Source: Oscillospiraceae bacterium
GTDB lineage: Bacteria; Bacillota; Clostridia; Oscillospirales; Ruminococcaceae
Length of the DNA stretch: 56,173 nt
Assembly (NCBI GenBank): GCA_017547245.1
Contig: JAFYQD010000001.1
Span: 1 to 56,173 of the forward strand
Reading direction: 5' to 3'
The position numbers and the translations under genes were made by a program. Below, piece after piece: positions 6,349 to 51,480 of this stretch. The first letter of the stretch is position 1, and each line of letters starts with the position of its first letter. The notes under the pieces are model-generated. The model saw only the letters and a list, made by a program, of their open reading frames with translations, had not been told where the DNA came from and did not search any database.

Positions 6349-6420
6349 ATAATCTGCGTAAACAGGCTTAGACCCGCAAACGTAGTAAAAAATAATACTG
6401 ATTTTTCAGGAGGATAAAAA

Positions 6421-27959: not shown

Positions 27960-29042
27960 TTATCGATCAAAATAGCCCTGACTGGCGTACAGTTCAGCCA
28001 TCAGAATTGCACCGCCAGCGGCGCCGCGCTTGGTGTTATGGCTCAGGCAGACAAACTTATAGTCATACTGGGTGTCGGGACGCAGACGACCGATCGAAAC
28101 AGCCATGCCGCCTTCCAGATCACGCTGAAGCTTGGTCTGAGGCATATTGTCTTCTTCAAAATAGTGCAGGAACTGCTTGGGAGCAGAGGGAAGCTCCAGT
28201 TCCTGAGGCATTCCGCTGTAGGCAGCCCACTTTTCCTTGATTTCTTCAATGGTGGGCTTCTTTTCAAAGGACATGAAAACAGCAGCCATGTGGCCATCCG
28301 AAACAGGTACACGCAGGCACTGGGCGGTAATGGAGGGGGTGGAAACGGGAACGATTTCGCCGTTTACAACGTCGCCCCAAATCTTCATGGGTTCCTTTTC
28401 ACTCTTTTCTTCTTCGCCGCCAATATAGGGGATTACGTTATCCACCATGTCGGGCCAGGTTGCAAAGGTTTTGCCGGCACCCGAAATGGCCTGATAGGTG
28501 CAGACCAAAGTTTTGGTAATGCCAAATTCCTTCAGGGGATGCATGGCAGGAACATAACTCTGCAGCGAGCAGTTGGACTTGACCGAAATAAAACCACGGG
28601 TGGTGCCCAGACGCTTTTTCTGGTCAGCAACAACGGCCATATGGCCGGGGTTGATTTCGGGAATGATCATGGGAACATCGGGGGTAAAACGATGAGCCGA
28701 GTTGTTGGACATTACGGGGCATTCCAGCTTGGCATATCTTTCTTCCAGTGCACGGATTTCATCCTTCTTCATATCGACGGCACAGAAGATAAAATCCACC
28801 GAAGAAGCTACCTTTTCGGCATCGGCAGTAGCATCAAGCACTACCATCTTTTTAATTTCCTCGGGAATGGGAGTGGTCATAGCCCAACGGCTGCCCACGG
28901 CTTCTTCATAAGTTTTGCCTGCGCTGCGGGAAGATGCTGCCAAAGTAGTCACCTTGAACCAGGGATGGTTTTCCAGCAAGGAAATAAAACGCTGGCCAAC
29001 CATGCCGGTTGCGCCTACAATGCCTACCTGATAAGTCTTCAT
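27960..29042 (-). CDS. asd: Aspartate-semialdehyde dehydrogenase
   Basis: A 360-residue enzyme reducing aspartyl phosphate to the semialdehyde for lysine, threonine and methionine synthesis. The NADP motif is [10 protein letters not shown]. The catalytic cysteine lies in VKSNCSLQS near residue 156, and the active-site histidine in VSDGHMAAV. Its length and motif set are those of the archaeal/fungal-like Asd subfamily found in many Clostridia. It is the first gene after the lysine riboswitch. Confidence 0.96.
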
Positions 29043-29089
29043 GTTGATCGGCTCCTTTTATGGTTTGAATAGAATTGACGGTTATTTTT

Positions 29090-29335
29090 GGACAATAAAA
29101 AAACCGGTTGAAAACCGGCAGCGATTATCCTATAATAAGAACGTTGCCTTATCATGGGAAGAAAGGATAGCTCAACACCCTGTTGGATGACAGTTGCAGG
29201 CCTGTTCGGACAGTGCAACCAGGTGAACAGCTGCCGGGCTGTTCCCTTCGGCGACGTTGCCTTTTGCTGGTGCATTGATGTGGCCTGGCAGCCTGCGTGG
29301 CAGCTACTCATCAACGACGCGCCTCTATCTCATTC
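29090..29335 (-). promoter_or_regulatory. Lysine riboswitch (L box) with terminator
   Basis: Read on the minus strand, the leader contains the L-box landmarks AGAGGCGCG (5' end near 29328), ATGAGTAG, and GGCAACGTCGCCGAAGG, close to the conserved GUCGCCGAAG core. A later CTGTCATCC helix partner follows, then a terminator CCGGTTTTCAACCGG with seven T residues at 29097-29118. High lysine should stabilise the aptamer and terminate transcription of asd-dapA-dapB-ACT. Aptamer boundaries are approximate. Confidence 0.9.
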
Positions 29336-29359
29336 CTATTATTTATATTGTCTTGTTAC

Positions 29360-29388
29360 ATATTATCATTGCTGCCCTTTGTTGTCAA
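29360..29388 (-). promoter_or_regulatory. Promoter of the lysine operon
   Basis: On the minus strand, TTGACA (29388-29383) and TAATAT (29365-29360) are spaced by 17 bases, just before the riboswitch. Confidence 0.85.
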
Positions 29389-29432
29389 TGTGGCAGTAGG
29401 ACAGAAAAGTGTATGCCACTGGGAGAATCTTT

Positions 29433-30461
29433 ATGAAAAAAAGCGATTTTTACTTTGATTTGCCGGAAGAATTGATTGCGCAGATTCCGTTGGAACAGCG
29501 AGATCAGTCCCGTTTGATGTGTGTTGACCGTGAAAGCGGTGCTTTGGAGCATAAGCATTTCTATGACATCGTTGATTTGCTGCAGCCCGGAGATCTTCTG
29601 GTTATGAACAACTCCAAGGTTTTGCCTGCACGTCTTTATGGCGTAAAGGAAGGCCCCGGCGGTGCAGTGTGTGAATTTTTGCTGCTGGAACAGAAGGAAC
29701 AGGATGTTTGGGAAATTCTTGTTCATCCCGGCCGCCGTCTCCGCACCGGTGCTCGTGTAAGCTTTGGCGAAGGTCTGCTGATTGGTGAGATCATTGATTG
29801 CCTGCCCAATGGCAACCGTCTGGCTCGATTTGAATATGAAGGAAACTTCTATAATATTCTGGACGAAATCGGCCAGATGCCCCTGCCTCATTACATCACC
29901 GCTGAACTGAAGGACAAAAACCGCTATCAGACCGTCTATGCCAAGGATCTTGGCTCGGCTGCAGCACCCACCGCGGGCCTGCATTTTACCAACGAGCTGT
30001 TGGAAAAGCTGCGCAGCAAGGGAGTACGCACCGCCTTTGTCACTCTTCACGTTGGTTTGGGCACCTTCCGCCCTGTAAAGGCAGATAACATTACAGACCA
30101 TCATATGCACTCGGAACACTACTATATGCCCCAGGAAACTGCCGATTTGATCAAACAAACCAAGGCAGAGGGCGGCCGGGTCATTTGTGTGGGAACCACA
30201 AGCTGCCGCACCCTTGAAACAGTAGGCAGCCGTCATGGTGTTATTGAGGAGTGTGAAGGTTATACTGATATTTTTATTTATCCCGGATATCAGTTTACCA
30301 TTATGGATGGTCTTATCACCAACTTCCATCTGCCTGAAAGCACTTTGATTATGCTTGTTTCTGCCTTTGCCGGAAGAGAAAACGTACTGAATGCTTATGA
30401 AACCGCAGTAAAAGAAAAGTATCGTTTCTATTCCTTTGGCGATGCAATGTTCTTAAGATAA
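29433..30461 (+). CDS. queA: S-adenosylmethionine:tRNA ribosyltransferase-isomerase QueA
   Basis: A 342-residue enzyme that adds an epoxycyclopentane moiety from SAM to preQ1-tRNA in queuosine synthesis. Signatures are [13 protein letters not shown] near 54-66, [10 protein letters not shown] near 176-185, [19 protein letters not shown] and [14 protein letters not shown] lies 7 bases before the ATG at 29433; an in-frame GTG at 29409 is less likely. It acts after Tgt, which is encoded at 48.7-49.8 kb but not cotranscribed with it. Confidence 0.97.
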
Positions 30462-30465
30462 TGCA

Positions 30466-30498
30466 GGAAAGAACAGCCGTTTCTGGCTGTTCTTTTTT
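30466..30498 (+). terminator. Terminator after queA
   Basis: An 11-bp stem AAAGAACAGCC/GGCTGTTCTTT is followed by TTTCTTT. Confidence 0.9.
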
Positions 30499-30531
30499 CT
30501 TTCCAATAATATACTTATGCTGTCAAGATTA

Positions 30532-30560
30532 TTGACGAAAATTTGAAATTGTGGTATAAA
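30532..30560 (+). promoter_or_regulatory. Promoter of the nitrogenase-like operon
   Basis: TTGACG at 30532-30537 and TATAAA at 30555-30560 are separated by 17 bases and lie upstream of a structured leader. Confidence 0.78.
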
Positions 30561-30596
30561 TAAGATGTAACCTGACATCGAAAAGAAATTTGAGAT

Positions 30597-30677
30597 GGAA
30601 GATACAGTATATCACGATATAAGGGGGACTTGTGTCCTCTTATTCGACTGCATCTTTCTACAGGTGCAGTCTTTTTT
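30597..30677 (+). promoter_or_regulatory. Candidate attenuator leader (terminator/antiterminator)
   Basis: A 7-bp terminator stem GACTGCA/TGCAGTC (30646-30652 / 30665-30671) followed by six T residues lies 25 bp upstream of the first gene. The upstream segment 30597-30607 can pair at 10 of 11 positions with 30648-30658, which includes most of the left terminator arm. A separate hairpin at about 30616-30641 sits between them. This mutually exclusive pairing is typical of a riboswitch or protein-controlled attenuator. No known riboswitch class was recognised. Confidence 0.6.
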
Positions 30678-30701
30678 ATTTGCAGAAAAGGGGAAATTAA
30701 A

Positions 30702-30959
30702 ATGGAGACAAGAGTAGCGCTGATTGGTATTATCGTAGAAAATGTGGACTCGGCCGAGCCCTTGAATGTGATCCTGCATGAGTATGGTCAGTACATTATT
30801 GGCCGTATGGGCATTCCTTACCGCAAAAGAGACATCAGTATTCTCAGTATTGCGGTGGATGCTCCCCAGGATGTGATCAGTACTCTTTCCGGACGTATTG
30901 GACAGCTGAAGGGCGTAAGTGCCAAAACAGCCTATTCCAATATCATTTCCAAGGAATGA
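30702..30959 (+). CDS. TM1266-type iron-only hydrogenase system regulator
   Basis: An 85-residue ferredoxin-fold protein of the TM1266 family, often annotated as an iron-only hydrogenase system putative regulator and structurally like the ligand-binding ACT/NikR C-domain. Visible signatures are VALIGIIVENVDSAEPLN and IIGRMGIPYRKRDISI. The family normally lies beside hydE, hydF and hydG. It is the first gene of the 30.7-39.7 kb operon. AAGGGG precedes the ATG at 30702, and its stop overlaps the next ATG (ATGA). It has no DNA-binding domain of its own. Confidence 0.85.
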   Translation: METRVALIGIIVENVDSAEPLNVILHEYGQYIIGRMGIPYRKRDISILSIAVDAPQDVISTLSGRIGQLKGVSAKTAYSNIISKE

Positions 30960-31978
30960 AGAGCCATCTGGCAGGCACCCTTTCAAGGCAGAGCCGGGTG
31001 CTGCTGATTCTTTTGCCATTTGTTGCTGCCTTTGCCGCACTTTGCATCGGACGCTATAGTTTTATTTCGCCTGCGCAGTTTTTAGCATCTGCAAAGGAAT
31101 TTATCCTTGGGCTTAAACCCCAGGACGGCAATACTTATACCGTTCTTTGGTCCATTCGTTTCCCTCGTATTCTTACCGCTCTGCTGGTGGGTGCCGGTCT
31201 TTCGGCTGCAGGCTGTGCCTTTCAGGGGCTCTTTTCCAATCCGTTGGCCACTCCGGACACCCTTGGTGTAGCAAGCGGCGCAAGCTTTGGTGCAGTGCTG
31301 GGCCTGCTGTTCGGTTTTGACCTCATCGGTGTACAGCTTCTTGCAATTCTGATGGGCTTTGCTGCCATTGTGCTGACCTATGTTACCGGCGCAGGGCGTG
31401 AATTCCGCATGAATACTGTTGTTCTTGCAGGCATCATGATTGGTTCGTTGTTTAACGCCCTTGTTTCGCTGGTCAAGTATGTTGCCGATGCCGAAAGTCA
31501 GCTTCCTGCCATCACTTATTGGCTGATGGGCAGCTTGGCTTCCACCGGATACCGCTCATTGGCCATGTGTGCACCTGTTATTATTGTTGGATTGATTATT
31601 TTGTTTGCGCTTCGCTGGAGGCTCAATCTGCTTCCGCTTACCGAAGATGAAGCAAGAGCGACAGGCACCAATATCATGGCTTTGCGTCTTGTGACCGCAG
31701 TATGTGCGGCAGCCATCACTGCTGCCTGCATTTCGCTGTGCGGACAGGTTGGCTGGGTTGGTTTGCTTATCCCTCACATCTGCAGAATGAAATATGGCAA
31801 CAACAATATGTCCATTATTCCTGCTTCCATCAGCTTGGGTGCCGTTTTTATGGTAGTGGTTGACACTGCCGCACGCACTCTTTCTGCGGCAGAAATTCCT
31901 GTTTCTATTCTTACGGCAATTATTGGTGCACCCTTCTTTATTGCACTTATGAGAAAAAGCGGGGGGTGGCGTCTGTGA
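30956..31978 (+). CDS. FecCD-family ABC transporter permease
   Basis: A 340-residue polytopic membrane protein with about 8-10 hydrophobic helices. It contains FecCD/BtuC-type signatures such as RFPRILTALLVGAGLSAAGCAFQGLFSNPLATPDTLG and GQVGWVGLLIPHICR. Relatives import iron-siderophores, haem or cobalamin through a BtuCD-type complex. It overlaps the preceding gene by 4 bases (ATGA). The partner ATPase follows immediately, and the binding protein lies six genes downstream of this one. The transported compound is unknown. Confidence 0.92.
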   Translation: MKSHLAGTLSRQSRVLLILLPFVAAFAALCIGRYSFISPAQFLASAKEFILGLKPQDGNTYTVLWSIRFPRILTALLVGAGLSAAGCAFQGLFSNPLATPDTLGVASGASFGAVLGLLFGFDLIGVQLLAILMGFAAIVLTYVTGAGREFRMNTVVLAGIMIGSLFNALVSLVKYVADAESQLPAITYWLMGSLASTGYRSLAMCAPVIIVGLIILFALRWRLNLLPLTEDEARATGTNIMALRLVTAVCAAAITAACISLCGQVGWVGLLIPHICRMKYGNNNMSIIPASISLGAVFMVVVDTAARTLSAAEIPVSILTAIIGAPFFIALMRKSGGWRL

Positions 31979-33084
31979 GAATGTCGGTAAACAACGGCGT
32001 TTTTTCTTATGAAAAAAACGGTAGGATTATTCTGAATGAGATCAACTTTTCCACCAAAGAAGGGGAGATTATGGCCATCCTTGGTCCTAACGGGGCGGGG
32101 AAAACCACTCTACTTCGCTGCATGATGGGCTTTTTGAAGTGGAACAGCGGAACAAGCAAACTGGATGATACCGATATCCGCTCCATTCCTGCACGTGAGC
32201 TTTGGAAACATGTTGCCTATGTTCCTCAGGCCCGACAGGCTTCTTCGGCCTATTCGGTGCAGGAAACGGTTATGCTGGGCCGCGGCAGCCATTTTGGTTT
32301 GTTGGCACAGCCTTCGGAAAAGGACATCAAAAAGGTTAACGAAGTGATGGAGCGTCTGCACATTGCCCATTTGGCAGATAAACGCTGTTCGGAAATAAGC
32401 GGCGGTGAACTGCAGATGGTACTGATTGCCCGTGCCCTTGCTTCTGAACCTCAAATCCTCATTTTGGATGAACCCGAATCCAATCTGGATTTTCGTAATC
32501 AGCTTCTGGTGCTCAACACCATGTCCGAACTGGCAGTAGAAGGCATGAGCTGCATTTTTAACACTCATTTTCCTTCTCATGCGCTTCAGCGTGCCGCCAA
32601 ATCGTTGCTGTTTTGCGGAGATGGCAAAACACTTTTTGGTGACACCAATGAGATTGTTACCGAAGAGAATATAGAAAAGGCCTTTGGTGTTAAGGCAGTT
32701 ATTGGTGAGATTGAAACCCCCGAAACGGTTCTTCACGATGTTTTGCCCATCAAACTTGCCGATTTGAACGAATCGGCTGAAGAAAAAGGCAGTAACGACA
32801 AGCGGCTTGCCGTTGTTGCCATTATCACCGGAAGTTACGAATCGGGCGAAAAAATCAATCGTCTTATGCACGAGTATGCTCGCTGCATTGTCGGCAGAAT
32901 GGGCATGCCGTACCACCAAAATGGTGTATATATCATCAATGTTATTTTGGATGGCGCTGAAAAAGACATTCAGACATTGTCTCATAAACTCAGCATTCTG
33001 CCGGGTGTAAGTGTAAAAACAACCTATGCAAAAAAAGATTCTTCAGAACAGGGAGGTGCCCTAACCTTTGAACAGTATATCTAA
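31975..33084 (+). CDS. ABC ATPase (FecE/BtuD-like) fused to a TM1266-like domain
   Basis: About 369 residues. The ATPase domain (about 1-250) has Walker A GPNGAGKTT, signature SGGELQMVLIARAL, Walker B ILILDEPESNLD, and a switch histidine in FNTHFPSH. The C-terminal 80 residues repeat the fold of the operon's first gene (RLAVVAIITGSYESGEKIN, CIVGRMGMPYHQNG, KLSILPGVSVKTTY). Such a fusion is unusual for importer ATPases and suggests that transport is gated by the ligand the regulator senses. I chose the GTG at 31975 (overlapping the permease TGA); GTG 31966 and ATG 31981 are alternatives. Confidence 0.9.
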   Translation: MRMSVNNGVFSYEKNGRIILNEINFSTKEGEIMAILGPNGAGKTTLLRCMMGFLKWNSGTSKLDDTDIRSIPARELWKHVAYVPQARQASSAYSVQETVMLGRGSHFGLLAQPSEKDIKKVNEVMERLHIAHLADKRCSEISGGELQMVLIARALASEPQILILDEPESNLDFRNQLLVLNTMSELAVEGMSCIFNTHFPSHALQRAAKSLLFCGDGKTLFGDTNEIVTEENIEKAFGVKAVIGEIETPETVLHDVLPIKLADLNESAEEKGSNDKRLAVVAIITGSYESGEKINRLMHEYARCIVGRMGMPYHQNGVYIINVILDGAEKDIQTLSHKLSILPGVSVKTTYAKKDSSEQGGALTFEQYI

Positions 33085-34138
33085 CATTGCTTTGATTGAT
33101 AAACTGAATATAGAAAAGACCCTGACAAAGGAGGAATGGGTACAGCTCATCCGTTCCTATACTGAAGAGGATGCAGCATATGCCGCAGCGGCAGCGCGAA
33201 AGATTGCCGATCGTCGTTTTGGCAACAAGGTGTTTTTCCGCGGCATCATCGAGTACTCCAATATCTGCAAAAACAACTGTTACTACTGCGGCATCCGCTG
33301 TGGAAACGCCAATTTGGAACGATACAGATTGGATAAGGATACCATTCTGGAATGTTGTTACCAGGGATATCAAAGCGGTTACCGCACCTTTGTGCTGCAG
33401 GGCGGCGAAGACCCCTTCTTTACCACCGATAAGATGGTTGATATTGTTTCTTCCATTCGCAGCCGATATCCCGATTGTGCCATTACCCTTTCAATAGGCG
33501 AGCTTGAGCGTGAAGACTATCAGCGGCTTTATGATGCCGGAGCCAATCGTTTTTTGCTTAGACATGAGACGGCAAACAGCTGTCACTACAGTCGGCTGCA
33601 CCCCGAGAATATGACTTTGGCAAAACGCATTCAGTGTTTGAAAGACCTGAAAGAGATTGGATTCCAGACCGGCTGCGGAATGATGGTTGGCTCACCCTTC
33701 CAGACGGCAGAGCATCTTGCCGAAGACATGATGTTTATTGCCGATTTTAAGCCCCATATGATTGGTGTCGGTCCCTTTATTCCACATCATGATACCCCTT
33801 TCCGTGATGAAAAGCCCGGAAGCGTTGCGCTTACATTGTTCCTGTTAAGCCTCTGCCGCATTCTGCTTCCCGATGTGCTGCTGCCTGCAACCACCGCATT
33901 GGGAACTTTGAGCACCGACGGTCGAAAAGCCGGTGTTCTGGCAGGTGCAAATGTAATAATGCCAAACCTTTCGCCTGTTGCACAACGTGAAAAATACATG
34001 CTGTATGACAACAAAGCCATCACCGGCGATGATGCAGGGGAAAGCCTTAAGGCACTGCAAGCCAGCATGGCAGAGATAGGATTTGAACTTGAAATCGGTC
34101 GCGGCGACTATAAAGAAGGAAGTGATCGGAATGATTAA
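33068..34138 (+). CDS. hydE: HydE-like radical SAM enzyme
   Basis: A 356-residue radical SAM protein of the HydE/BioB-like group. The cluster motif C-x3-C-x2-C appears as CKNNCYYC near residues 73-80, followed by GIRCGNANLERYRL, then GYRTFVLQGGEDPF, LRHETANSCHYSRLHP and IGVGPFIPHHDTPF, typical of HydE. HydE makes an iron-carbonyl/cyanide/cysteine intermediate in [FeFe]-hydrogenase H-cluster assembly. The TTG start at 33068 has GGGAGGTG about 9 bases upstream and overlaps the ATPase gene by 17 bp. Because its neighbours are nitrogenase-like proteins rather than a hydrogenase, it might be a HydE paralogue with another substrate. Confidence 0.82.
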   Translation: MNSISNIALIDKLNIEKTLTKEEWVQLIRSYTEEDAAYAAAAARKIADRRFGNKVFFRGIIEYSNICKNNCYYCGIRCGNANLERYRLDKDTILECCYQGYQSGYRTFVLQGGEDPFFTTDKMVDIVSSIRSRYPDCAITLSIGELEREDYQRLYDAGANRFLLRHETANSCHYSRLHPENMTLAKRIQCLKDLKEIGFQTGCGMMVGSPFQTAEHLAEDMMFIADFKPHMIGVGPFIPHHDTPFRDEKPGSVALTLFLLSLCRILLPDVLLPATTALGTLSTDGRKAGVLAGANVIMPNLSPVAQREKYMLYDNKAITGDDAGESLKALQASMAEIGFELEIGRGDYKEGSDRND

Positions 34139-34901
34139 AATTGCAGTATATGGCAAAGGCGGCATCGGTAAGTCCACCACCGTCTCCAATCTTTCGGCCG
34201 TTCTGGCCAAAAATGGTTTTAAGGTCATGCAAATTGGCTGCGACCCCAAAGCCGACTCCACTTCCACCCTCCGTGACGGAAAACCGATGAATACGGTTTT
34301 GGATTTGGTGCGAACCAAAAAGAATGATTTTGCGCTGGAAGATATGGTGACCGAAGGCTTTGGCGGAGTTATTTGCGTTGAAGCAGGAGGCCCCACTCCC
34401 GGACTTGGCTGCGCAGGCCGCGGCATCATTGCCGCCTTGGAAAAGCTTAAGGAAAAAGGTGCCTACGAAACCTATCAGCCAGACATTGTCTTTTATGATG
34501 TTTTGGGTGACGTTGTTTGCGGAGGTTTTACCATGCCCATGCGTGATGGTTATGCCGACAAGGTGTTTGTTGTTACCTCGGGCGAAAATATGTCCATCCA
34601 TGCAGCGGCCAATATTGCTGTGGCGGTGGATCAGTTTAAGGACCGTGGATATGCACAGCTGGGCGGTCTTATCCTCAACCGCAGGAATGTAAAGAACGAA
34701 GAAGAAAAGGTTCAGGAGCTTGCCGAAGATATTGAAAGCAAAATTGTAGGTTCGCTGAGCCGCAGCGAGTATGTTCAGGATGCCGATGCAATGCACAAAA
34801 CGGTTATTGAAGCTTTCCCCGAAAGCGACATGGCAAAGGAATATACTCTTCTTGCACAAAGTATACTTGCCGAATGTGGGAGGGAGGTCTCTCTTTGCTG
34901 A
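34131..34901 (+). CDS. Nitrogenase iron-protein-like reductase (NifH superfamily)
   Basis: A 256-residue P-loop ATPase of the NifH/BchL/CfbC superfamily. Walker A KGGIGKSTT is near 9-17 and switch I GCDPKADST near 37-45. The two [4Fe-4S] ligand cysteines are conserved in GLGCAGRG and DVVCGGFTMPMR. The homodimer would use ATP to pass single electrons to the NifD/K-like complex encoded next. It overlaps hydE by 8 bp. Its C-terminus is shorter than that of true NifH. No nifE, nifN or nifB genes are present. Confidence 0.93.
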   Translation: MIKIAVYGKGGIGKSTTVSNLSAVLAKNGFKVMQIGCDPKADSTSTLRDGKPMNTVLDLVRTKKNDFALEDMVTEGFGGVICVEAGGPTPGLGCAGRGIIAALEKLKEKGAYETYQPDIVFYDVLGDVVCGGFTMPMRDGYADKVFVVTSGENMSIHAAANIAVAVDQFKDRGYAQLGGLILNRRNVKNEEEKVQELAEDIESKIVGSLSRSEYVQDADAMHKTVIEAFPESDMAKEYTLLAQSILAECGREVSLC

Positions 34902-36226
34902 AGTCTGTTTGGAACTTTACCGATGACAGCGGCGCTGCCGTAAAAATAAGCGAAGCGATGTTTCCTTCGCCGTTCCATTCCGGGCTTGAGTATGGTGCGC
35001 CTGCACGCGGCTGTTGGAATATTGTTCATACAGGTATGCTGATTCCCGAAGCACATCAGGTTTTTGTCTGTGCTTCCGGCTGTCTGCGCGGTGTAGTGCT
35101 TACTGCTGCAGAAATGGGCGCTGCCCATCGTTTTTCTACGGTAGAAATTCGAGAAAACAACGTACTGGACGGCGACATGGAAGAGCTTATCATCGATGGT
35201 GTCAGTGACGTTCTTTCCCGTTTGCCAAAACTTCCTCCGGCTGTGCTTATTTACACCAGCTGTATCCATCACTTTATGGGCTGCGACCTTCCCAGAGTGT
35301 ATCGTATTTTGCGTGAAAAGTTTCCCGGTGTTGCGTTTACCGACTGCTATATGAATCCCATAATGCGAAAAAGCGGTGCAACCCCCGATGAACTGATGCG
35401 TCGTCAGCTGTATAGCCTTCTTGAGGAAACAACCAAAGACCCCAAGTCGGTCAATATCATCGGCAATGACCTTGCCTTTGAACAGGATAGCGACCATATT
35501 GAGCTTATCAAAAACAGCGGTTGGACACTTCGTGATATCACTGCCTGCAAAAGTTATGATGAATACAAAGAAATGTCCAAGGCAAGCTTTAACATCTATA
35601 ACATTCCGGCAGCCCGTCTTTCGGCCATGCAGTTAGAGCGCCGTTTGGGACAAAGCTGTTTGTATATGCCTCAGTGCTTTGGTTACGATGAAATCTCGCG
35701 CAGCATGGAACAGCTTGCCGAAATGCTTGGCATAAAGCCCTTGAATGATGCCGCCAAACGCAAGGCTGCCGATAATTCTCTCGAAAAGGCTCTTTCGGTG
35801 ATTGGTGATACTCCCATTGCCATTGACTATACCTTCAGCTTCCGTCCATTAAGCTTGACCAGACTTTTGCTGGAAAAGGGCTTCCGTGTAACCGAAGTGT
35901 ATGCAGACGGCTTTATCGCCGAAGAGAGGGCAGATTTTGAGTGGCTGCAGCAAAACCATCCTGAACTTAAAATCTGCGCCACCTTGCATGCCAAACGCCG
36001 TGTACTTTCAAGACAAAGGGAAGAAAAGATACTTGCCTTGGGTCAGAAAGCAGCCTACTTTACAGGCACCGATTATTTTGTAAATCTGGTTGAAGGCGGG
36101 GGACTGTATGGTTTTAACGGAATAATCAAGCTGGCCGGACTTATGGCCGAAGGCTACCTTACCCCAAAAGACACCAGAAAGCTGATTCAAATTAAAGGCA
36201 TGGGAAGCGAGGGATGCTGTTTATGA
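34895..36226 (+). CDS. NifD-like catalytic subunit (oxidoreductase/nitrogenase component 1)
   Basis: A 443-residue protein of the nitrogenase component 1 family. Three cysteines (about residues 40, 63 and 123; ARGCWN, CASGC, YTSCIHH) match the alpha-subunit P-cluster ligands. Alignment by eye of NIYNIPAARLSAMQLE with the NifD Cys275 region puts Ile at the cofactor cysteine. GGLYGFNG at the end aligns with the NifD His442 region with Tyr in place of His. No FeMo-type cofactor is therefore expected. The TTG at 34895 has GGGAGG 7 bases upstream and overlaps the nifH-like stop; an ATG at 34874 precedes that site. Confidence 0.87.
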   Translation: MLKSVWNFTDDSGAAVKISEAMFPSPFHSGLEYGAPARGCWNIVHTGMLIPEAHQVFVCASGCLRGVVLTAAEMGAAHRFSTVEIRENNVLDGDMEELIIDGVSDVLSRLPKLPPAVLIYTSCIHHFMGCDLPRVYRILREKFPGVAFTDCYMNPIMRKSGATPDELMRRQLYSLLEETTKDPKSVNIIGNDLAFEQDSDHIELIKNSGWTLRDITACKSYDEYKEMSKASFNIYNIPAARLSAMQLERRLGQSCLYMPQCFGYDEISRSMEQLAEMLGIKPLNDAAKRKAADNSLEKALSVIGDTPIAIDYTFSFRPLSLTRLLLEKGFRVTEVYADGFIAEERADFEWLQQNHPELKICATLHAKRRVLSRQREEKILALGQKAAYFTGTDYFVNLVEGGGLYGFNGIIKLAGLMAEGYLTPKDTRKLIQIKGMGSEGCCL

Positions 36227-37383
36227 AACAAACTGCAAGTATTATCTCTACCTATGCGTCTGATGTTTCCGGTGTGTGTTCCGCTCTTTATGAATTGGGC
36301 GGCATGACCGTTATGCATGACCCTTCAGGCTGCAATTCCACCTATAACACCCATGATGAACCCCGATGGTATGATTTTGACAGCCTTATCTTTATCTCAG
36401 CCCTGTCCGAGATGGAGGCAATCATGGGCGATGACGATCGCTTGATTGAGGAAGTGGTGGAAACCGCCCTTCAGCTAAAACCAAAGTTTATTGCGATTGC
36501 GGGTTCACCTGTTCCAATGGTGATAGGAACCGATTTCAAGGCCATTGCCCGTGTGATTGAAAAAAAGTCCGGTATTCCTTGCTTTGGTTTTACCACCAAT
36601 GGAATGCACTCTTATCTTTCGGGTGCAGGCATGGCCTTTGAGGCATTTGCCCAAAGAATGGTTGACCCTGCCGATAAGGCCGAGGGAAAGCATCGAGTAA
36701 ATATTCTTGGTGCAACACCGCTGGATTTTTCGGTAAACGGCAGCGTTGATTCCATAAAAATATGGCTTGAACAGAATGGATTTGAAGTAAACAGCTGTTG
36801 GGCCATGGGCAGTGAACTGGAGGACTTGGTTCACTCCGGTCGGGCAGATGTTAATCTGGTTGTATCCCAAAGCGGCTTAAAGGCTGCCAAAGTTCTAAAC
36901 AAACAATTTGGAACGCCATTTGTTATGGGTGTGCCGGTTGGTCTTGATTGCTCAAAGCTTCTTGCAGAAAGACTGATACAGGCAGAACAAAGCGGTCAAT
37001 GCAGCACTTCTTTCACAAGAAATGTGGTAAATGGGGAAGAGGATATCGTTTTGATTGCAGAAAGCATTTATGGTTGTTCGCTTGCTTCTGCCATTGAGCA
37101 AAAAACGGGCAAAAATGTCCGTGTTATCTGTCCCTTGGAGGGCGAAAAGGATATTCTTATGCCGCATGATGTTTTTGCCACAGACGAAGTGGAACTGATG
37201 CCTGTTTTGGAAAAAGCGAAGATTATCATTGCCGATCCACTTTATCAGCCCATTTGCCCCAAAGATGCAAAGTTTATTCCCCTTGCCCACGAGGCTTTTT
37301 CGGGCAGAATATATCGTTCAGAGATTCCCAATATGATAGGGGAAGGCTTTAACCACTGGTTCGCTGAACATATTGGAGGTTGA
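36223..37383 (+). CDS. NifK-like subunit (oxidoreductase/nitrogenase component 1)
   Basis: A 386-residue component 1-family protein that would form the heterotetramer with the NifD-like subunit. HDPSGCNSTY (Cys37) matches the GC ligand of NifK. The positions of the other two beta-subunit P-cluster cysteines appear lost (Tyr/Ala near residue 11 and Pro in AGSPVPMVIGTD). The complex may therefore carry a single [4Fe-4S] cluster ligated mostly by the D-like subunit. The ATG at 36223 overlaps the previous stop (ATGA). It contains a C-terminal Rossmann-like domain. The substrate is unknown. Confidence 0.85.
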   Translation: MKQTASIISTYASDVSGVCSALYELGGMTVMHDPSGCNSTYNTHDEPRWYDFDSLIFISALSEMEAIMGDDDRLIEEVVETALQLKPKFIAIAGSPVPMVIGTDFKAIARVIEKKSGIPCFGFTTNGMHSYLSGAGMAFEAFAQRMVDPADKAEGKHRVNILGATPLDFSVNGSVDSIKIWLEQNGFEVNSCWAMGSELEDLVHSGRADVNLVVSQSGLKAAKVLNKQFGTPFVMGVPVGLDCSKLLAERLIQAEQSGQCSTSFTRNVVNGEEDIVLIAESIYGCSLASAIEQKTGKNVRVICPLEGEKDILMPHDVFATDEVELMPVLEKAKIIIADPLYQPICPKDAKFIPLAHEAFSGRIYRSEIPNMIGEGFNHWFAEHIGG

Positions 37384-37387
37384 TTTT

Positions 37388-38524
37388 ATGAAAAAGATAA
37401 TGTCCCTTGTATTATCGCTTGTTATGGTTCTTTCCCTTACTGCTTGCGGCTCCGGGAAAGCTCCGCAGACAAACCAACCTGCGATAGAAAACAATCAGGA
37501 AGAAACCATTACGGTAGTTGATCATCTGGATAACTCTGTTGCGGTTCCTAAAAAGATAGATCGCATTGCTGTCTGCAGCATTTGGCCTCTGCCTTCGGTT
37601 CTTAGTGTATTCTTTAATTCGGCCGAAAAGATTGTTGCCATGCCGGAGCCGAGCCTTAGCGCAGCACAAAACAGTCTGCTGGGCGAGCTTTATCCCGAAA
37701 TTCTTGATGTAAACACAAGCTTTATGACCGGTAACGAAGTAAACGTAGAAGAACTGCTTAAACTTGCCCCCGATGTTGTTTTTTACAGCGCTTCGTTGCC
37801 TGCTTTGGGTGAACAGCTTACCAATGCAGGTTTCAGCGCCGTGGCTGTTTCGGTCAACAAGTGGGATTATAACTGTATTGAAACCCTGAACAATTGGATT
37901 GCGCTGCTTAGCGAGATTTTCCCCGAAAATGATAAGAGTGCCATTGTTGAAGATTACAGCAACAAGGTATACGATATGATTCAGCAACGTGTATCCAAGA
38001 TTGAAAAGGATGACCGTCCGTCTGCATTGTTCCTTTACCGTTATGATGATACCGAGATTGTTACTTCTGGCAGCAAATTCTTTGGACAGTGGTGGGCAGA
38101 TGCCTCCGGTGCCGAAAATGTTGGGGAAGAAATCAATCAGGATAACGCTGTAACTGTAAATATGGAGCAGGTTTATGCCTGGGATCCCGACATTGTGTTC
38201 CTGACCAATTTCACTTCTGCCCAGCCCGATGATCTGTATCACAACACCATCGGTAACTATGACTGGAGTGACATTGACGCCATTGAAGATTCTCGTGTAT
38301 ACAAGTGTCCTCTGGGCATTTACCGCAGCTATACTCCCGGTGCCGATACCCCGGTAACACTGCTGTGGTATGCAAAGACCATTTATCCCGAACTTTTTAA
38401 GGATATTGACCTTACCAAAGAGGCAAAGGACTACTACAACACCGTGTTTGGAATTGAGCTGACCGATGAACAGATTGAAACCATGTTTGCACCTCCTTCC
38501 GAGGCTGCCGGCGGTGTATTCTAA
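37388..38524 (+). CDS. Lipoprotein substrate-binding protein (FecB/BtuF family)
   Basis: A 378-residue periplasmic-binding-type protein. It has a lipoprotein signal peptide with lipobox LTAC (cleavage before Cys about 20), then TVVDHLDNSVAVPKKIDRIAV, the usual start of the TroA/FecB fold. The clefts of such proteins bind metal chelates, haem or cobalamin. GGAGG lies 7 bases before the ATG at 37388. It presumably serves the FecCD/ATPase pair encoded upstream and so completes an importer in the same operon. It has several aromatic residues (Trp, Tyr) but no His-rich metal loop. Confidence 0.9.
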   Translation: MKKIMSLVLSLVMVLSLTACGSGKAPQTNQPAIENNQEETITVVDHLDNSVAVPKKIDRIAVCSIWPLPSVLSVFFNSAEKIVAMPEPSLSAAQNSLLGELYPEILDVNTSFMTGNEVNVEELLKLAPDVVFYSASLPALGEQLTNAGFSAVAVSVNKWDYNCIETLNNWIALLSEIFPENDKSAIVEDYSNKVYDMIQQRVSKIEKDDRPSALFLYRYDDTEIVTSGSKFFGQWWADASGAENVGEEINQDNAVTVNMEQVYAWDPDIVFLTNFTSAQPDDLYHNTIGNYDWSDIDAIEDSRVYKCPLGIYRSYTPGADTPVTLLWYAKTIYPELFKDIDLTKEAKDYYNTVFGIELTDEQIETMFAPPSEAAGGVF

Positions 38525-38542
38525 GAAAAGGAGAGACAGAAT

Positions 38543-39748
38543 ATGGGTCTGAATGATACTCCTTCCGCCAATCGTGTCCACATAGGATTCTTTGGGCGCA
38601 GAAACGCAGGCAAATCCAGCCTTGTGAACGCTGTAACAGGTCAGCAGTTGGCCATTGTTTCCGACACAAAGGGTACAACCACCGACCCTGTTTACAAGGC
38701 GATGGAACTGCTGCCTCTTGGCCCTGTGATGATCATCGACACCCCCGGTTTTGATGACGAAGGGGAACTGGGTCTTCTGCGTGTAAAAAAGACCAGACAG
38801 GTTCTATACAAGACCGATGTGGCTGTGCTGGTAATTGATGCAACCGTTGGCCTGCAGCAAAGCGAGCAGGAAATGATCGACCTGTTTGAAAAGAAAGAAA
38901 TCGCTTATATTGTTGTATACAACAAGTCGGACCTTCTTGTCGGCATTCCCGAAGCAGATGAGAAAAGCATTTATGTTAGTGCCGAAAAGAATATTGCTGT
39001 CCACGAGCTGAAGGAACGCATGGCCAGACTTGCCAAAACCGAAGATACAGATAAAAAAATCGTAGGAGATTTGCTTGTTCCCGGCGATGTTGTTGTTCTG
39101 GTTACCCCAATAGATGAAGCTGCACCCAAGGGTCGTTTGATACTGCCTCAACAGCAGACAATTCGCGATATTCTTGATTCCAATGCAGTTTCTGTGGTTG
39201 TAAAGGAGAATGCCTTGCCGGAGGTTTTTGAGAAATTTTCGGTCAAACCAAAGCTGGTCATTACCGACAGCCAGGCCTTTGCTTTGGTCAATCGTGCAAC
39301 TCCGGAGGATATCCCTCTTACGTCTTTTTCGATTTTGATGTCCCGCTATAAAGGCCAGCTTACCGATGCAGTCAAGGGTGTTGTTGCCATAGATCAGCTT
39401 AAAGATGGTGACACTGTGCTTATTTCAGAAGGGTGTACCCACCATCGCCAGTGCGGAGATATCGGCAGTGTAAAAATTCCCGCATGGCTTAACAAATACA
39501 CCGGCAAAAAGCTGAACATTGTCACAACCTCCGGAACAGAGTTTCCCGATGATCTTTCGCCCTATGCTCTTGTAATTCATTGCGGCGGCTGTATGCTGAA
39601 TGAAAGAGAAATGCGGTATCGAATGAAAACTGCCATCGATCAGGGCGTCCCCATGACCAATTATGGCATTGCAATTTCTTATATGAATGGCATTCTGAAA
39701 AGAAGTGTTGCCATGCTTCCCGAAGTAAACAGCATTTTAGAAAAATAA
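38543..39748 (+). CDS. hydF: [FeFe]-hydrogenase maturation GTPase HydF
   Basis: A 401-residue protein with an N-terminal GTPase domain (GRRNAGKSSLVNA near 14-26, DTPGFDDEG near 67-75, NKSDLL) and a C-terminal Fe-S scaffold domain with the conserved cysteines and histidine of HydF (EGCTHHRQCGDIG and HCGGCMLNE). HydF acts as the scaffold on which the diiron subcluster is completed before transfer to the hydrogenase. It is the last gene of the operon and is followed by a strong terminator. HydG and the hydrogenase are not in this window. Confidence 0.92.
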   Translation: MGLNDTPSANRVHIGFFGRRNAGKSSLVNAVTGQQLAIVSDTKGTTTDPVYKAMELLPLGPVMIIDTPGFDDEGELGLLRVKKTRQVLYKTDVAVLVIDATVGLQQSEQEMIDLFEKKEIAYIVVYNKSDLLVGIPEADEKSIYVSAEKNIAVHELKERMARLAKTEDTDKKIVGDLLVPGDVVVLVTPIDEAAPKGRLILPQQQTIRDILDSNAVSVVVKENALPEVFEKFSVKPKLVITDSQAFALVNRATPEDIPLTSFSILMSRYKGQLTDAVKGVVAIDQLKDGDTVLISEGCTHHRQCGDIGSVKIPAWLNKYTGKKLNIVTTSGTEFPDDLSPYALVIHCGGCMLNEREMRYRMKTAIDQGVPMTNYGIAISYMNGILKRSVAMLPEVNSILEK

Positions 39749-39756
39749 AAATAGAA

Positions 39757-39787
39757 ACTCCTTCGGTAAAAACGAAGGAGTTTTTCT
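39757..39787 (+). terminator. Terminator after hydF
   Basis: An 11-bp stem AAACTCCTTCG/CGAAGGAGTTT is followed by a T run. Confidence 0.92.
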
Positions 39788-39795
39788 TTATGCTG

Positions 39796-39824
39796 TCGAC
39801 AAAAAAGAACATTTGTGCTACAAT
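39796..39824 (+). promoter_or_regulatory. Promoter for the DUF5131 gene
   Basis: TCGACA at 39796-39801 and TACAAT at 39819-39824 are spaced by 17 bases, 26 bp upstream of the start codon. Confidence 0.65.
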
Positions 39825-39850
39825 TGTTATACAACAAAGGAGGTGGCGGT

Positions 39851-40570
39851 GTGGCTAATTGGAATCCCTGGCATGGATGCCATAAATATTCGCCGGGCTG
39901 CCGCCATTGCTATGTCTACCGCAGCGATGCCGCACACGGAAAGGATAGTTCCATTGTTGCCAAAACCACTTCCTTTGGCTTGCCTGTTGCCAAAAACAGG
40001 GCAGGGGAATATAAGATTCCTTCGGGAGAAAGGGTTTGGACCTGTTTTACTTCGGATTTCTTTTTAGAGGATGCGGATGAATGGCGTCCCCAAGCCTGGG
40101 AAATGATGAAGGAACGTTCCGACTTGGATTTTCTATTTATTACCAAGCGCGTTCTTCGTTTTTATGACTGCATTCCCGATGATTGGGGAGAGGGTTACCC
40201 AAACGTTCACATTTGTTGTACAGCTGAAAACCAGGCCTGTGCGGACGAGCGGTTGCCATTATTCAAGACGCTGCCCATAGCGCATAAAAGTATCATATGC
40301 GAACCCATTCTGGAGCAGATTGATCTTTCTCCCTATCTTGGCAGTTGGGTAGAAGAGGTTGTGGCAGGCGGAGAATCGGGTCCCAATGCTCGCCTTTGTC
40401 GTTACGAGTGGATTACCCAACTGCGCCGTCAGTGCGATTCTGCTAATGTTCCGTTTTGGTTCAAGCAAACCGGTGCCATTTTTGAAAAGGATGGGAAAAT
40501 CTATCGTGTTGCACGCAAACACCAACATAGTCAGGCACACAAAGCCGGGCTGAATACATCACAACGATAA
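39851..40570 (+). CDS. DUF5131 (phage Gp37/Gp68-like) protein with Cys triad
   Basis: A 239-residue protein of the DUF5131/Gp37-Gp68 family. The N-terminal WNPWHGCHKYSPGCRHCYVYR contains a C-x6-C-x2-C triad resembling atypical radical SAM clusters; SDFF and FLFITKR are further family landmarks. The C-terminus has GESGPNARLCRYEWI and FWFKQTG. Members are found in phages and in stand-alone chromosomal positions; the function is not established. I chose the GTG at 39851 because AAAGGAGGTG lies about 6 bases upstream. Confidence 0.8.
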   Translation: MANWNPWHGCHKYSPGCRHCYVYRSDAAHGKDSSIVAKTTSFGLPVAKNRAGEYKIPSGERVWTCFTSDFFLEDADEWRPQAWEMMKERSDLDFLFITKRVLRFYDCIPDDWGEGYPNVHICCTAENQACADERLPLFKTLPIAHKSIICEPILEQIDLSPYLGSWVEEVVAGGESGPNARLCRYEWITQLRRQCDSANVPFWFKQTGAIFEKDGKIYRVARKHQHSQAHKAGLNTSQR

Positions 40571-40634
40571 AGAGCATATCCAACAACCTTATCGGCATAA
40601 ACAGAAATATATTCTGTTTTGCGGAGGGTGTTCT

Positions 40635-41369
40635 ATGAAAATAGGTTGGAAACTGGCTGTTCTTTTGATGCTATGCAGTTTTTCTTTGGTTCTTGGTGTG
40701 GTATATATTGCCGACACGCCGTTGGCTGCGCAGGCTTATGCTTCCGACGCTTGCTTTCCCACCATAGTCATAGACCCCGGCCATGGTGGGTTTGATGGGG
40801 GCGCTGTTGGAATAAACGGTGTAATTGAAAAGGATATCAATCTTTCGCTTTCCTTGGATTTGGCAGAGATGTTCCGTGTTGTGGGTTATCAGGTTGTAAT
40901 GACACGAACAGACGACCGTTCCATTCATGACCAGAGTGTGGAAGGAATCAAAAAGCAAAAAACCTCTGATATGCACAACCGTTTGGCCATTATGCAGCAA
41001 TACCCAAACGGAATTGTTCTTTCCATCCATCAAAACCAGTTCAGCCAGTCAAAATACAGCGGCGGCCAACTTTTTTATGGAATCCAAAAGGAAGAAAACA
41101 GCCGTTTATTGGCAGAAACAATGCAGAATAATCTGAAAGATTTTCTTCAGCCGGAAAACAATCGACAAATCAAGCAGGCTTATGATAATCTATATCTAAT
41201 GAAAAACGCACCGTCCACCGCCGTTTTGGTGGAATGCGGTTTTTTGTCCAATCCTGACGAGGCGGAGCTTTTATCGCAGGAAGAATATCGGCGAAAAGTA
41301 GCCTTTGTCATTTGTTCTTCAACCCTTCAGTTTATACAGGAGGAAATGATTCATGGCAATCAAATCTAA
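40635..41369 (+). CDS. N-acetylmuramoyl-L-alanine amidase, CwlD-like
   Basis: A 244-residue Amidase_3 enzyme with an N-terminal signal/anchor helix (about 7-26). Zinc/catalytic motifs are IDPGHGGFDGG, the metal-binding Glu in VIEKDIN, SIHQN and VECGFLSN. CwlD homologues remove peptide side chains from cortex muramic acid during sporulation to form muramic lactam. GGAGGGTG precedes the ATG. Its 3' end overlaps radA by 17 bp. Confidence 0.9.
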   Translation: MKIGWKLAVLLMLCSFSLVLGVVYIADTPLAAQAYASDACFPTIVIDPGHGGFDGGAVGINGVIEKDINLSLSLDLAEMFRVVGYQVVMTRTDDRSIHDQSVEGIKKQKTSDMHNRLAIMQQYPNGIVLSIHQNQFSQSKYSGGQLFYGIQKEENSRLLAETMQNNLKDFLQPENNRQIKQAYDNLYLMKNAPSTAVLVECGFLSNPDEAELLSQEEYRRKVAFVICSSTLQFIQEEMIHGNQI

Positions 41370-42726
41370 AACCATCTTTGTTTGTTCACAGTGCGGCTGC
41401 CAACTGCCCAAATGGCAGGGGAGATGCCCCGACTGTGGTGAGTGGAACAGCATTGTTCAGGAAGAGCTTCAGGTTTCTTCGGCTGCATCAACACGCCGCG
41501 GCCCTTCTGTTATGATGGAAACACAACCCCTTAGTTCGGTTACAGCTGACGAGGGGCAGCGCCTTAAAACAGGAATAGGGGAGTTTGACCGTGTTTTGGG
41601 CGGAGGCATTGTTCCGGGCTCGGTGGTTCTTCTTTGCGGTGATCCCGGCATCGGCAAATCTACCATTCTGCTGCAGGTCTGCCATCATGTATGCCGTCAG
41701 AATAAGGTTTTGTATGTTTCGGGCGAAGAAAGCCTCCGTCAGATCAAGCTGCGAGCCAATCGCCTTGGAATAAATGGGGACGATCTGCTTCTTTCTGCGG
41801 CAACAGATGCTGCCACCATAGTGGAAAGCATTAAAGCTTTACAGCCCGACTTGGTTGTAATTGACTCGATTCAGACCATGAATCTTCAGGAAATCTCCTC
41901 GTCCTCGGGCAGCGTGACACAGGTTCGTGAATGTACCCAACAGTTTATTGCTGCGGCCAAATCCAGCGGTGTGCCTGTCTTTTTGGTTGGCCATGTAAAC
42001 AAGGATGGCGGCATTGCAGGCCCCAAGGTTTTGGAACACATGGTGGATACTGTTCTTTATTTTGAAGGGGACAGAAACCTCTCCTACCGTATTCTCAGAG
42101 CAATCAAGAACCGATTTGGTTCCACCAATGAGATTGGTGTGTTTGAAATGGGATCTGTGGGCCTTTCCGAGGTAGAGAATCCTTCGAAAATGTTGTTGGA
42201 AGGCCGTCCCGAGGGTGTTTCGGGAACTTGTGTGGTCAGTCTTTTGGAAGGTACAAGACCAATTTTGGCCGAAGTTCAGGCGCTGGTTGCCAAGAGTGCG
42301 CTGAATGCCCCAAGAAGAGTGACCACAGGCTTTGATTTTAACAGAACAAACCTGTTGCTTGCCGTTCTTGAAAAACGTGCAGGTTTTCGCTTTGGCACTT
42401 TGGATGCCTATATAAATGTGGCCGGTGGTTTGCGTATAGACGAACCTGCTGCCGATTTGGCGGTTGCCATGGCTTTGATATCCAATTTGTTAGACAAACC
42501 TTTGCCCACCGATGCTGTAGCCTTTGGCGAACTGGGCTTAACAGGAGAAATACGTGCCGTTTCTCAGCCCCAACAGCGCATCAACGAAGCATATCGCCTC
42601 GGTTTGCGTACCTTTATTCTGCCTAAACAGAACCTGAACACAGTCAAGCAATCGGAATTTCCCGATGCAATTTTCTATCCCGTTACCAATCTTTCTCAGG
42701 CATTGAATCTATTTTCAAAAAATTAA
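41353..42726 (+). CDS. radA: DNA repair protein RadA (Sms)
   Basis: A 457-residue RecA-like branch-migration helicase. It has an N-terminal C4 zinc finger (CSQCGCQLPKW...CPDCGEW), Walker A CGDPGIGKST near 95-104, the RadA-specific KNRFGSTNE motif near 255, and a C-terminal Lon-like domain with GGLRIDEPAADLA. It acts in recombination-dependent repair. CAGGAGG precedes the ATG. It ends at a strong terminator. Confidence 0.97.
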   Translation: MAIKSKTIFVCSQCGCQLPKWQGRCPDCGEWNSIVQEELQVSSAASTRRGPSVMMETQPLSSVTADEGQRLKTGIGEFDRVLGGGIVPGSVVLLCGDPGIGKSTILLQVCHHVCRQNKVLYVSGEESLRQIKLRANRLGINGDDLLLSAATDAATIVESIKALQPDLVVIDSIQTMNLQEISSSSGSVTQVRECTQQFIAAAKSSGVPVFLVGHVNKDGGIAGPKVLEHMVDTVLYFEGDRNLSYRILRAIKNRFGSTNEIGVFEMGSVGLSEVENPSKMLLEGRPEGVSGTCVVSLLEGTRPILAEVQALVAKSALNAPRRVTTGFDFNRTNLLLAVLEKRAGFRFGTLDAYINVAGGLRIDEPAADLAVAMALISNLLDKPLPTDAVAFGELGLTGEIRAVSQPQQRINEAYRLGLRTFILPKQNLNTVKQSEFPDAIFYPVTNLSQALNLFSKN

Positions 42727-51212: not shown

Positions 51213-51480
51213 AAAAATAAAACGCCCCCATGCCGTTCTGGCACAGAGGGCGAAATAAATACTTCGCGGTACCACCTCAGTTTCCCTGTAAAACAGGGCT
51301 TTGGCGGGCTGTAAAACCCGACACGCTGTAACGTGCGCTCACGGCTAACCCTACACAGAAAAAATCCTTCAGGCAGCGGCTCCAAGATGTATTCGCTTCG
51401 TCAGCAGGCCTTTTTGCACCAACCAAAGGCTCTCTGTACTGCATGGTCGAAGTTACTGGTTCTTTTCATCGCCATTCAAT
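51213..51480 (-). promoter_or_regulatory. T-box leader of tyrS, Tyr specifier
   Basis: On the minus strand the T-box core AGGTGGTACCGCG lies at 51277-51265, followed by a terminator stem CGCCCTCTGTGCC...GGCATGGGGGCG and TTTTATTTT. Stem I has CAGAGAG, GGTTGGTGC and GCGAATACATC; the specifier TAC (51391-51389) is preceded by GAA and followed by A, matching tyrosine. Confidence 0.93.

Follow-up and report, generated by a model that had tools for sequence, protein, structure and literature searches.

A nitrogenase-like system probably stands in for HydG in an [FeFe]-hydrogenase maturation operon of an Oscillospiraceae bacterium

We analysed a 56,173-nucleotide (nt) stretch of DNA from an Oscillospiraceae bacterium (contig JAFYQD010000001.1 of assembly GCA_017547245.1; hereafter the window), which holds a nine-gene operon at 30702-39748, with all genes on the + strand and neighbouring genes either overlapping or separated by no more than 18 nt. 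This is very probably an operon for maturation of the [FeFe]-hydrogenase H-cluster in which HydG has been displaced by a nitrogenase-like system, and numerous gut bacteria and acetogens appear to assemble the Fe-CO-CN core of this hydrogenase without HydG, by a nitrogenase-like enzyme combined with either an importer or a cyanide pathway. HydG is swapped for this system at the level of the operon, the two exclude each other in the sampled genomes, canonical HydE and HydF are retained, and a leader RNA is shared between both kinds of operon. Taken together, the syntenic swap, the exclusivity towards HydG and the presence of HypFCDE partners point to H-cluster maturation.

HydG is a radical S-adenosylmethionine (SAM) tyrosine lyase whose products from tyrosine are CO and CN-, and it is treated as the source of both ligands in the H-cluster. 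Its product [Fe(Cys)(CO)2(CN)] is a substrate for reduction and, as proposed, dimerisation by HydE, with HydF as the carrier (PMC11736057, PMC9431212; these, like PMC9147875 below, are cited from excerpts). In a survey of eight Clostridium acetogens, HydE and HydF were present in all and HydG in only three, for which the excerpts give hypotheses and no firm explanation; HypCDEF without HypA or HypB occurred in five acetogens, four of them among the five that lack HydG (PMC9431212). Three of the HydG-less species, C. ljungdahlii, C. carboxidivorans and C. ragsdalei, carry the system described here (such genomes are called carriers below), the other two, C. coskatii and C. sp. AWRP, lying outside our comparison; C. 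drakei, which has HydG both in that survey and here, is also a carrier. Among the papers listed by our literature searches, which were confined to PubMed Central (PMC), we found none that connects a nitrogenase-like enzyme with assembly of the H-cluster and no explanation for the absence of HydG from acetogens.

Results

HydG is exchanged in place within a conserved locus

The genome that carries the window (G000) is 56% complete; a second genome of the same genus (G001) is 94% complete. The same locus of G001 reads asd, queA, TM1266-HydE-HydG-HydF, DUF5131, amidase and radA, with flanking genes as in the window, and in the place of its HydG the window has a FecCD permease, an ATP-binding cassette (ABC) ATPase fused to a TM1266 domain, NifHDK-like proteins and a substrate-binding lipoprotein (SBP). 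The two DNA sequences match over 28183-30877 of the window (82%; queA, the leader and into TM1266) and again over 38549-41780 (73%; hydF onward), and the sole DNA match between these blocks is a 442-bp patch of hydE at 67%. Protein identities are 93% for QueA, 84% for HydF and 56% for HydE. HydG has been exchanged in place for the FecCD, ABC-TM1266, NifHDK and SBP genes, and HydE was apparently exchanged along with the importer and NifHDK genes.

The nitrogenase-like core and HydG exclude each other across the class

HydG was scored as present at or above its NCBIfam cut-off (312 bits), a criterion that a strongly diverged HydG could escape. Our class sample comprised 392 genomes (391 that are at least 95% complete, plus G000), with HydF over its cut-off in 258 and HydG in 232. 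All 23 "core" carriers, defined by a NifD match at E<1e-120, had HydF and none had HydG; put differently, core NifD occurred in 23 of the 30 genomes with HydF and no HydG, in 0 of the 228 with both and in 0 of the 134 without HydF (Fisher p about 5e-27 for core carriage against HydG, uncorrected for kinship). Kinship is partly controlled, because the genus g181 is split (of its 16 genomes, 8 are carriers without HydG, 6 are non-carriers with HydG and 2 have neither HydF nor HydG) and because, of the 9 families spanned by core carriers, 8 also hold genomes with HydG.

Closer relatives show the same pattern. Our panel consisted of 80 genomes out of 149 (G000-G073 and six others), with every carrier found included. 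HydF exceeded its cut-off in 43, and 30 of these had HydG (29 intact and one, in G051, in pieces). The NifD-like gene occurs in 11 of the 13 panel genomes with HydF and no HydG, with G045 and G018 (55% complete) as the exceptions, and all 11 panel carriers have HydF and lack HydG over the cut-off, including the incomplete G000 itself. A further 50 carriers were picked by similarity out of 80 fetched, and 41 of them had no HydG over the cut-off. The only match of the HydG model in C. ljungdahlii was at 68 bits, to a HydE-like frame of 347 amino acids, and the best in C. carboxidivorans, at 198 bits, stayed under the 312-bit cut-off. On a HydE tree, carrier and HydG labels need 8 changes each, of which at least 5 of the carrier changes are forced by well-supported branches; labels scattered in this manner suggest that the exchange probably happened repeatedly.

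HydE of carriers keeps the positions conserved in its HydG-associated counterparts

As a reference we used 15 HydE sequences from 20 HydG loci, having dropped four that scored at most 250 bits against the window HydE and one locus without HydE. This reference set has 102 invariant positions; at 86 of them, at least 90% of the 46 carrier HydE sequences have the same residue, from which we infer that the carrier HydE probably receives a substrate like the product of HydG. A potential target enzyme, that is a hydrogenase matching PF02906, was found in 10 of the 11 panel carriers (10 of 10 when G000 is set aside), and the H-cluster Cys motifs were present in all 11 hydrogenase sequences read from panel carriers.

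A second carrier variant couples NifHDK to cyanide-making Hyp proteins

HypF and HypE convert carbamoyl phosphate into cyanide, and an Fe(CN)2CO unit is borne by HypCD. In C. ljungdahlii, the same NifHDK set as in the window (NifHDK1) adjoins a second one (NifHDK2) and genes for HypF, HypC, HypD and HypE, with equivalog matches over the cut-offs for HypF (772 bits), HypD (391.6 bits) and HypE (417.4 bits). The same two-set genes were recognized by similarity in C. carboxidivorans, C. ragsdalei, C. luticellarii and many others, and HypD exceeded its cut-off in 35 of 35 two-set genomes. A short HypC variant, which starts with MCVG(L/I) and not with MCLAIPG, was read by eye between HypF and HypD in all 34 distinct loci (36 rows minus two repeated genomes); in L046, for example, it lies between the end of HypF at 6217 and the start of HypD at 6386. 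The possibility that these Hyp clusters lack HypC was rejected on account of this variant, which is found also in Table 4 of PMC9431212. The C-terminal Cys of HypE is kept in 38 of 40 sequences, and nine HypD cysteines are kept in 34 of 34.

Among 80 carrier genomes, the importer lies beside NifHDK1 in 44 (43 if G178 and G369, which look like one genome, are counted once) and a HypD-type cluster is present in 35, the locus of G024 being cut by a contig end. No HypD of any kind was detected in 42 of the 44 importer genomes, and the other two, G173 and G190, have only an ordinary hyp operon elsewhere, with HypC of the MCLAIPG type. The 35 HypD genomes have NifHDK2 and/or further cluster-type Hyp genes in the fetched stretches (partial sets in G167, G177 and G431), with no FecCD or SBP homologue in the stretches fetched around NifHDK1. 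Within these stretches, the importer and HypFCDE are mutually exclusive, 44 versus 35 carrier genomes.

The NifHDK-like proteins fall outside the modelled nitrogenase families

None of the three proteins reaches any NCBIfam cut-off for NifH, NifD/K/E/N, CfbC/D or the Bch models. The NifH-like protein scores 326.6 bits against nifH (cut-off 394.35), 323.6 against CfbC (402), 204.0 against BchL (345.15) and 166.4 against BchX (331.2); the CfbD equivalog gives 33.7 bits for a cut-off of 268.4, and scores against the nifE, nifD and nifK models and against those of BchN, B and Z are far under their cut-offs. NifE is the top-scoring named model for both the D- and the K-like protein and also the best solved-structure match for D. 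As no cut-off was reached, a role in nitrogen fixation or in F430 or bacteriochlorophyll formation was rejected, and the D/K-like proteins stand, as the earlier note on this DNA had supposed, apart from those nitrogenase-like families that have an NCBIfam model; methylthio-alkane reductase has no such model and stands outside this comparison. The invariant cysteines of D (66, 70 and 130) and K (40) would suit one Fe-S cluster at the D/K interface.

A leader RNA is common to nitrogenase-like and some HydG operons

The operon is preceded by a leader RNA whose hairpin has the form CUGA-NNNN-GAAA ... UUUGA-NNNN-RAAG. Its 4-bp helix shows CG/UA and AU/GC exchanges, with 76.8% of cells pairing versus 26-49% when the partner is slid. 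For a tested structure that included a weaker outer helix, 0 of 500 shuffles matched either the degree of pairing or the covariation score, and two further measures, pairs changed on both sides and further pair types, showed no excess over shuffles. P1, the outer helix, has only half support, with pairing in 50% of cells, and the model omits it. That model, R1, was built from 31 sites, among them the window, which it matches at 51.8 bits; in 2.5 Mb of loci it finds 19 further distinct sites, every one of which, by coordinates, lies upstream of a TM1266, FecCD, HydF or NifH2 gene. The same RNA precedes canonical hydE-hydG-hydF operons in 4 of 20 HydG loci (three clear and one weak), one of them in G001, and also the NifHDK2-HypFCDE operons of G180 and G185 (loci noted: L217, L219, L212 and L193). 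The element is thus common to many nitrogenase-like operons and to some HydG operons.

Downstream of the element, the 5' arm of a terminator-like hairpin (30646-30677) could pair with the end of the element, AAGATACAGT with ACTGCATCTT, in 9 of 10 pairs with one A-C mismatch, and this succession of the element and a terminator-like hairpin with a potentially pairing 5' arm recurs in many other loci. A known Rfam leader was rejected, as no family matched at the gathering threshold and none credibly at E<=10 (Rfam 15). The leader may possibly be a new riboswitch or a protein-binding antiterminator that would act through a terminator switch.

Architecture of the operon and its conservation

The features of the operon are collected in Table 1. 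The earlier note had described nine genes joining a nitrogenase-like reductase, HydE/HydF and an importer, and this arrangement is borne out by Pfam and NCBIfam scans, in which the permease, ATPase and binding-protein families of the importer all exceed the Pfam cut-offs. The promoter before the operon and the terminator after it are where that note placed them; the RNA element and the hairpin inside the leader are additions to it. The search for partners of the NifD/K-like genes across genomes, which it had suggested, indicates that the combination is not due to chance: in the best 80 of 522 homologous loci fetched, NifH, D and K homologues were present in all 80 (in L048 the sole NifH belongs to the second set), and flanks, many of which end early at contig ends, contained HydE in 33, HydF in 29, TM1266 in 48 and FecCD in 50.

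Table 1. Positions of the operon's genes and signals in the window, with the basis of each assignment
Feature	Position	Strand	Basis
Sigma-70-like promoter	30532..30560	+	TTGACG 30532-30537, 17 nt spacer, TATAAA 30555-30560; read from sequence
Conserved leader-RNA element	30560..30618	+	core hairpin 30572-30601; two tandem G-A motifs flank the covarying 4-bp helix
Intrinsic-terminator-like hairpin within the leader, 5' of the first gene	30646..30677	+	reading of sequence and hairpin scan
TM1266-family putative hydrogenase-system regulator	30702..30959	+	TIGR03959 112.5 bits (cut-off 60.8); PF21699 109 bits
FecCD/BtuC-type ABC permease	30956..31978	+	PF01032 267 bits
ABC ATPase with C-terminal TM1266 domain (residues 280-352)	31966..33084	+	PF00005 120 bits; PF21699 73 bits
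HydE, H-cluster radical SAM maturase	33068..34138	+	TIGR03956 equivalog 551.9 bits (cut-off 254.6)
NifH-like ATP-dependent reductase	34131..34901	+	PF00142 (Fer4_NifH) 303 bits; P-loop; Cys94 and Cys130 kept
NifD-like subunit	34874..36226	+	PF00148 (Oxidored_nitro) 68 bits; Cys66, Cys70 and Cys130 invariant (alignments)
NifK-like subunit	36214..37383	+	PF00148 (Oxidored_nitro) 119 bits; Cys40 invariant (alignments)
Importer SBP	37388..38524	+	PF01497 (Peripla_BP_2) 71 bits; lipobox-like Cys20 nearly invariant
HydF, H-cluster scaffold GTPase	38543..39748	+	TIGR03918 equivalog 571.3 bits (cut-off 325.55)
Operon-end terminator-like hairpin and T-run	about 39757..39785	+	read from sequence

A phage origin of the system was rejected, with no related locus in two IMG/VR candidate stretches and no PHROG for the NifD-like protein. 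Elsewhere, the window holds a lysine riboswitch (29160-29335, - strand) and two T-box leaders (2178-2407, + strand; 51243-51478, - strand).

Discussion

In the model that we propose, the NifHDK-like complex, probably with one Fe-S cluster between D and K, would act as an ATP-driven low-potential reductase in the place of HydG, and NifHDK1 would supply or complete an Fe(CO)2(CN)-type unit that is accepted by HydE instead of the [Fe(Cys)(CO)2(CN)] synthon of HydG, upon which HydE and HydF would act as usual. In the variant of the C. ljungdahlii type, cyanide would be passed from carbamoyl phosphate via HypF-HypE onto the iron of HypC-HypD, aided by NifHDK2, and we consider a Hyp origin of the cyanide in this variant to be likely. 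CO would come from reduction of CO2 by the nitrogenase-like enzyme; making CO out of CO2 is an established reaction for a nitrogenase-type Fe protein, and the chances that this is how CO arises here seem to us evenly balanced. With respect to the earlier note, its view of the nitrogenase-like enzyme, HydE/HydF and importer as one conserved unit holds, and as to the function, which it left open, the swap, the exclusivity and HypFCDE point to H-cluster maturation. In our model HydE and HydF keep their normal roles and take on no new one, and an imported metal chelate may possibly be processed.

Several observations weigh against this interpretation. The threshold for core carriers was set after the scores had been seen, and 7 of the 30 class genomes with HydF and no HydG lack the core, meaning that another solution or assembly gaps exist. 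Eight more distant NifD matches in the class sample (216-373 bits) fall in 6 genomes with HydG and 2 without, and adding them to the carriers lowers the count to 25 of 31 without HydG; as these matches are mostly in HydG-containing genomes, their clade probably does something else. Among the 50 carriers picked by similarity, 9 have HydG, including C. drakei, C. thailandense and Intestinibacter. According to the excerpts of PMC9431212, C. autoethanogenum has a HydG candidate recognised by its motifs, and the other acetogens have atypical ones. As for the target enzyme, no PF02906 hydrogenase was found in the 56% complete G000, the first motif is unusual in the hydrogenase matches read from carriers G034 and G127, and HydA-like genes whose Cys motifs are intact occur also in relatives without HydF (seven were read), so that the presence of HydA alone proves little. 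As a simple test it was in fact dropped as uninformative, with PF02906 matches in 76 of the 80 panel genomes.

Some of the genomes just mentioned merit description in their own right. Distant NifDK sets lie beside an SBP gene in L208 (G256) and L209 (G401), the former with FecCD/ABC as well, in genomes that contain HydG, and represent a sister system. The HydF loci of four of the seven coreless genomes (G410, G469, G413 and G321) and of G045 from the panel showed no such cluster, G447, G378 and G505 being outside this check; in G410, G469 (L165, L166), G413 (L167) and G045 (L164), which have HydF without HydG or the core, HydE beside HydF is divergent or undetected, and a third solution is possible. 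In G010, G014, G031, G033 and G046 (L125-L128, L131), the HydA-like proteins keep the H-cluster Cys motifs, several of them as TSCSPGW, and these genomes have no HydF over its cut-off and nothing that matches the HydG model, to which HydE proteins respond as well; the HydA-like proteins could be either H-cluster-free paralogues or clients of yet another maturation route.

What the importer carries is the least certain part of the model. Since the window variant is without the HypFCDE-NifHDK2 half and has the importer instead, the importer most likely brings an equivalent precursor, which would be iron or a cyano-iron compound. Uptake of an Fe-CN/CO species as such we regard as possible and no better than tentative, and the same word fits a rival account of the import step that is compatible with replacement of HydG, namely that a simple inorganic ion (molybdate/tungstate, or an iron or nickel chelate) is brought in for the NifDK-like enzyme. 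The solved-structure matches of the binding protein, 4ovk ("periplasmic binding protein", 169 bits), HI_1472 (65 bits), which we take to be the molybdate-binding MolA, and then named iron and nickel binders, agree with the inorganic-ion account, and its conserved Lys158, Lys306 and Arg313 and several Trp/Tyr would suit a small anion. However, this account leaves unexplained the exclusion between the importer and NifHDK2-HypFCDE, and two-set carriers keep the same NifHDK1 with no importer beside it.

Two further alternatives concern the enzyme itself. Formation of the azadithiolate bridge, or reduction of the iron, is a rather improbable task for the nitrogenase-like complex, with CO and CN then coming from free pools or from an unrecognised radical SAM enzyme. 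HydE and HydF alone do give about 1% activation in vitro, and a ligand-incorporation mechanism of unidentified nature has been raised (PMC9431212); against this, the gene replaced is that of HydG, whose products are CO and CN, HypFCDE is cyanide machinery, and aminomethyl-lipoyl-H-protein has been connected with the bridge (PMC11736057). Least probable is that the enzyme and importer serve another task (on a corrinoid, a tetrapyrrole, a methylthio compound or a metal) and merely share the operon, HydG having been lost independently: such chemistry is found in other groups of nitrogenase-like enzymes, among them the group IV-C MarDK (PMC9147875), and G256 combines distant NifDK relatives and an importer with HydG, but the system is tied to supply of CO/CN ligands by its syntenic swap and mutual exclusion with HydG, by its HypFCDE partners and by the leader RNA that both kinds of operon share, and the core was absent from all 134 genomes without HydF.

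If our interpretation of HydG replacement is correct, the nitrogenase superfamily gains a new function, assembly of [NiFe] and [FeFe] hydrogenases becomes linked, and there is a way of making hydrogenases that does not start from tyrosine. A HydG-free route would also explain why industrial acetogens such as C. ljungdahlii have HydE/HydF without detectable HydG and HypCDEF without HypA/HypB (PMC9431212). It is even conceivable, though on balance unlikely, that bacteria of the window type, instead of making the diatomic-ligand iron unit themselves from the start, take up through the FecCD importer a cyano- or carbonyl-iron precursor that other microbes have released, and finish it with the nitrogenase-like enzyme; in that event the H-cluster precursor would be a shared, vitamin-like organometallic of gut communities, with HypFCDE-NifHDK2 strains as its producers.

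Each half of the system resembles known machinery and departs from it. With the canonical HydEFG operon it has TM1266, HydE, HydF, the leader RNA and, in the congener G001, the chromosomal locus in common, whereas HydG is gone and NifHDK plus an importer, or NifHDK1/2 plus HypFCDE, are in its place. Like the characterised NifHDK, NifEN, BchLNB, CfbCD and MarHDK, it combines an H-type ATPase with two D/K-type subunits bearing conserved cysteines, but these NifHDK-like proteins miss all of the equivalog cut-offs (MarHDK not being part of the sequence comparison), and their partners and inferred product differ. The two-set variant shares HypF, C, D and E with the HypCDEF machinery that makes the Fe(CN)2CO unit of [NiFe]-hydrogenases, including the C-terminal Cys of HypE and the HypD cysteines; unlike that machinery, it is joined genetically to NifHDK sets and its HypC starts with MCVG(L/I), and HypA/HypB were undetected in five Clostridium acetogens, including the carriers C. 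ljungdahlii and C. ragsdalei, according to the excerpts of PMC9431212. Finally, the permease, ATPase and binding protein of the window fall in the same families as importers of the FecBCD/BtuFCD type, from which they differ in that the ATPase bears a TM1266 domain, a feature that ties the importer to hydrogenase maturation.

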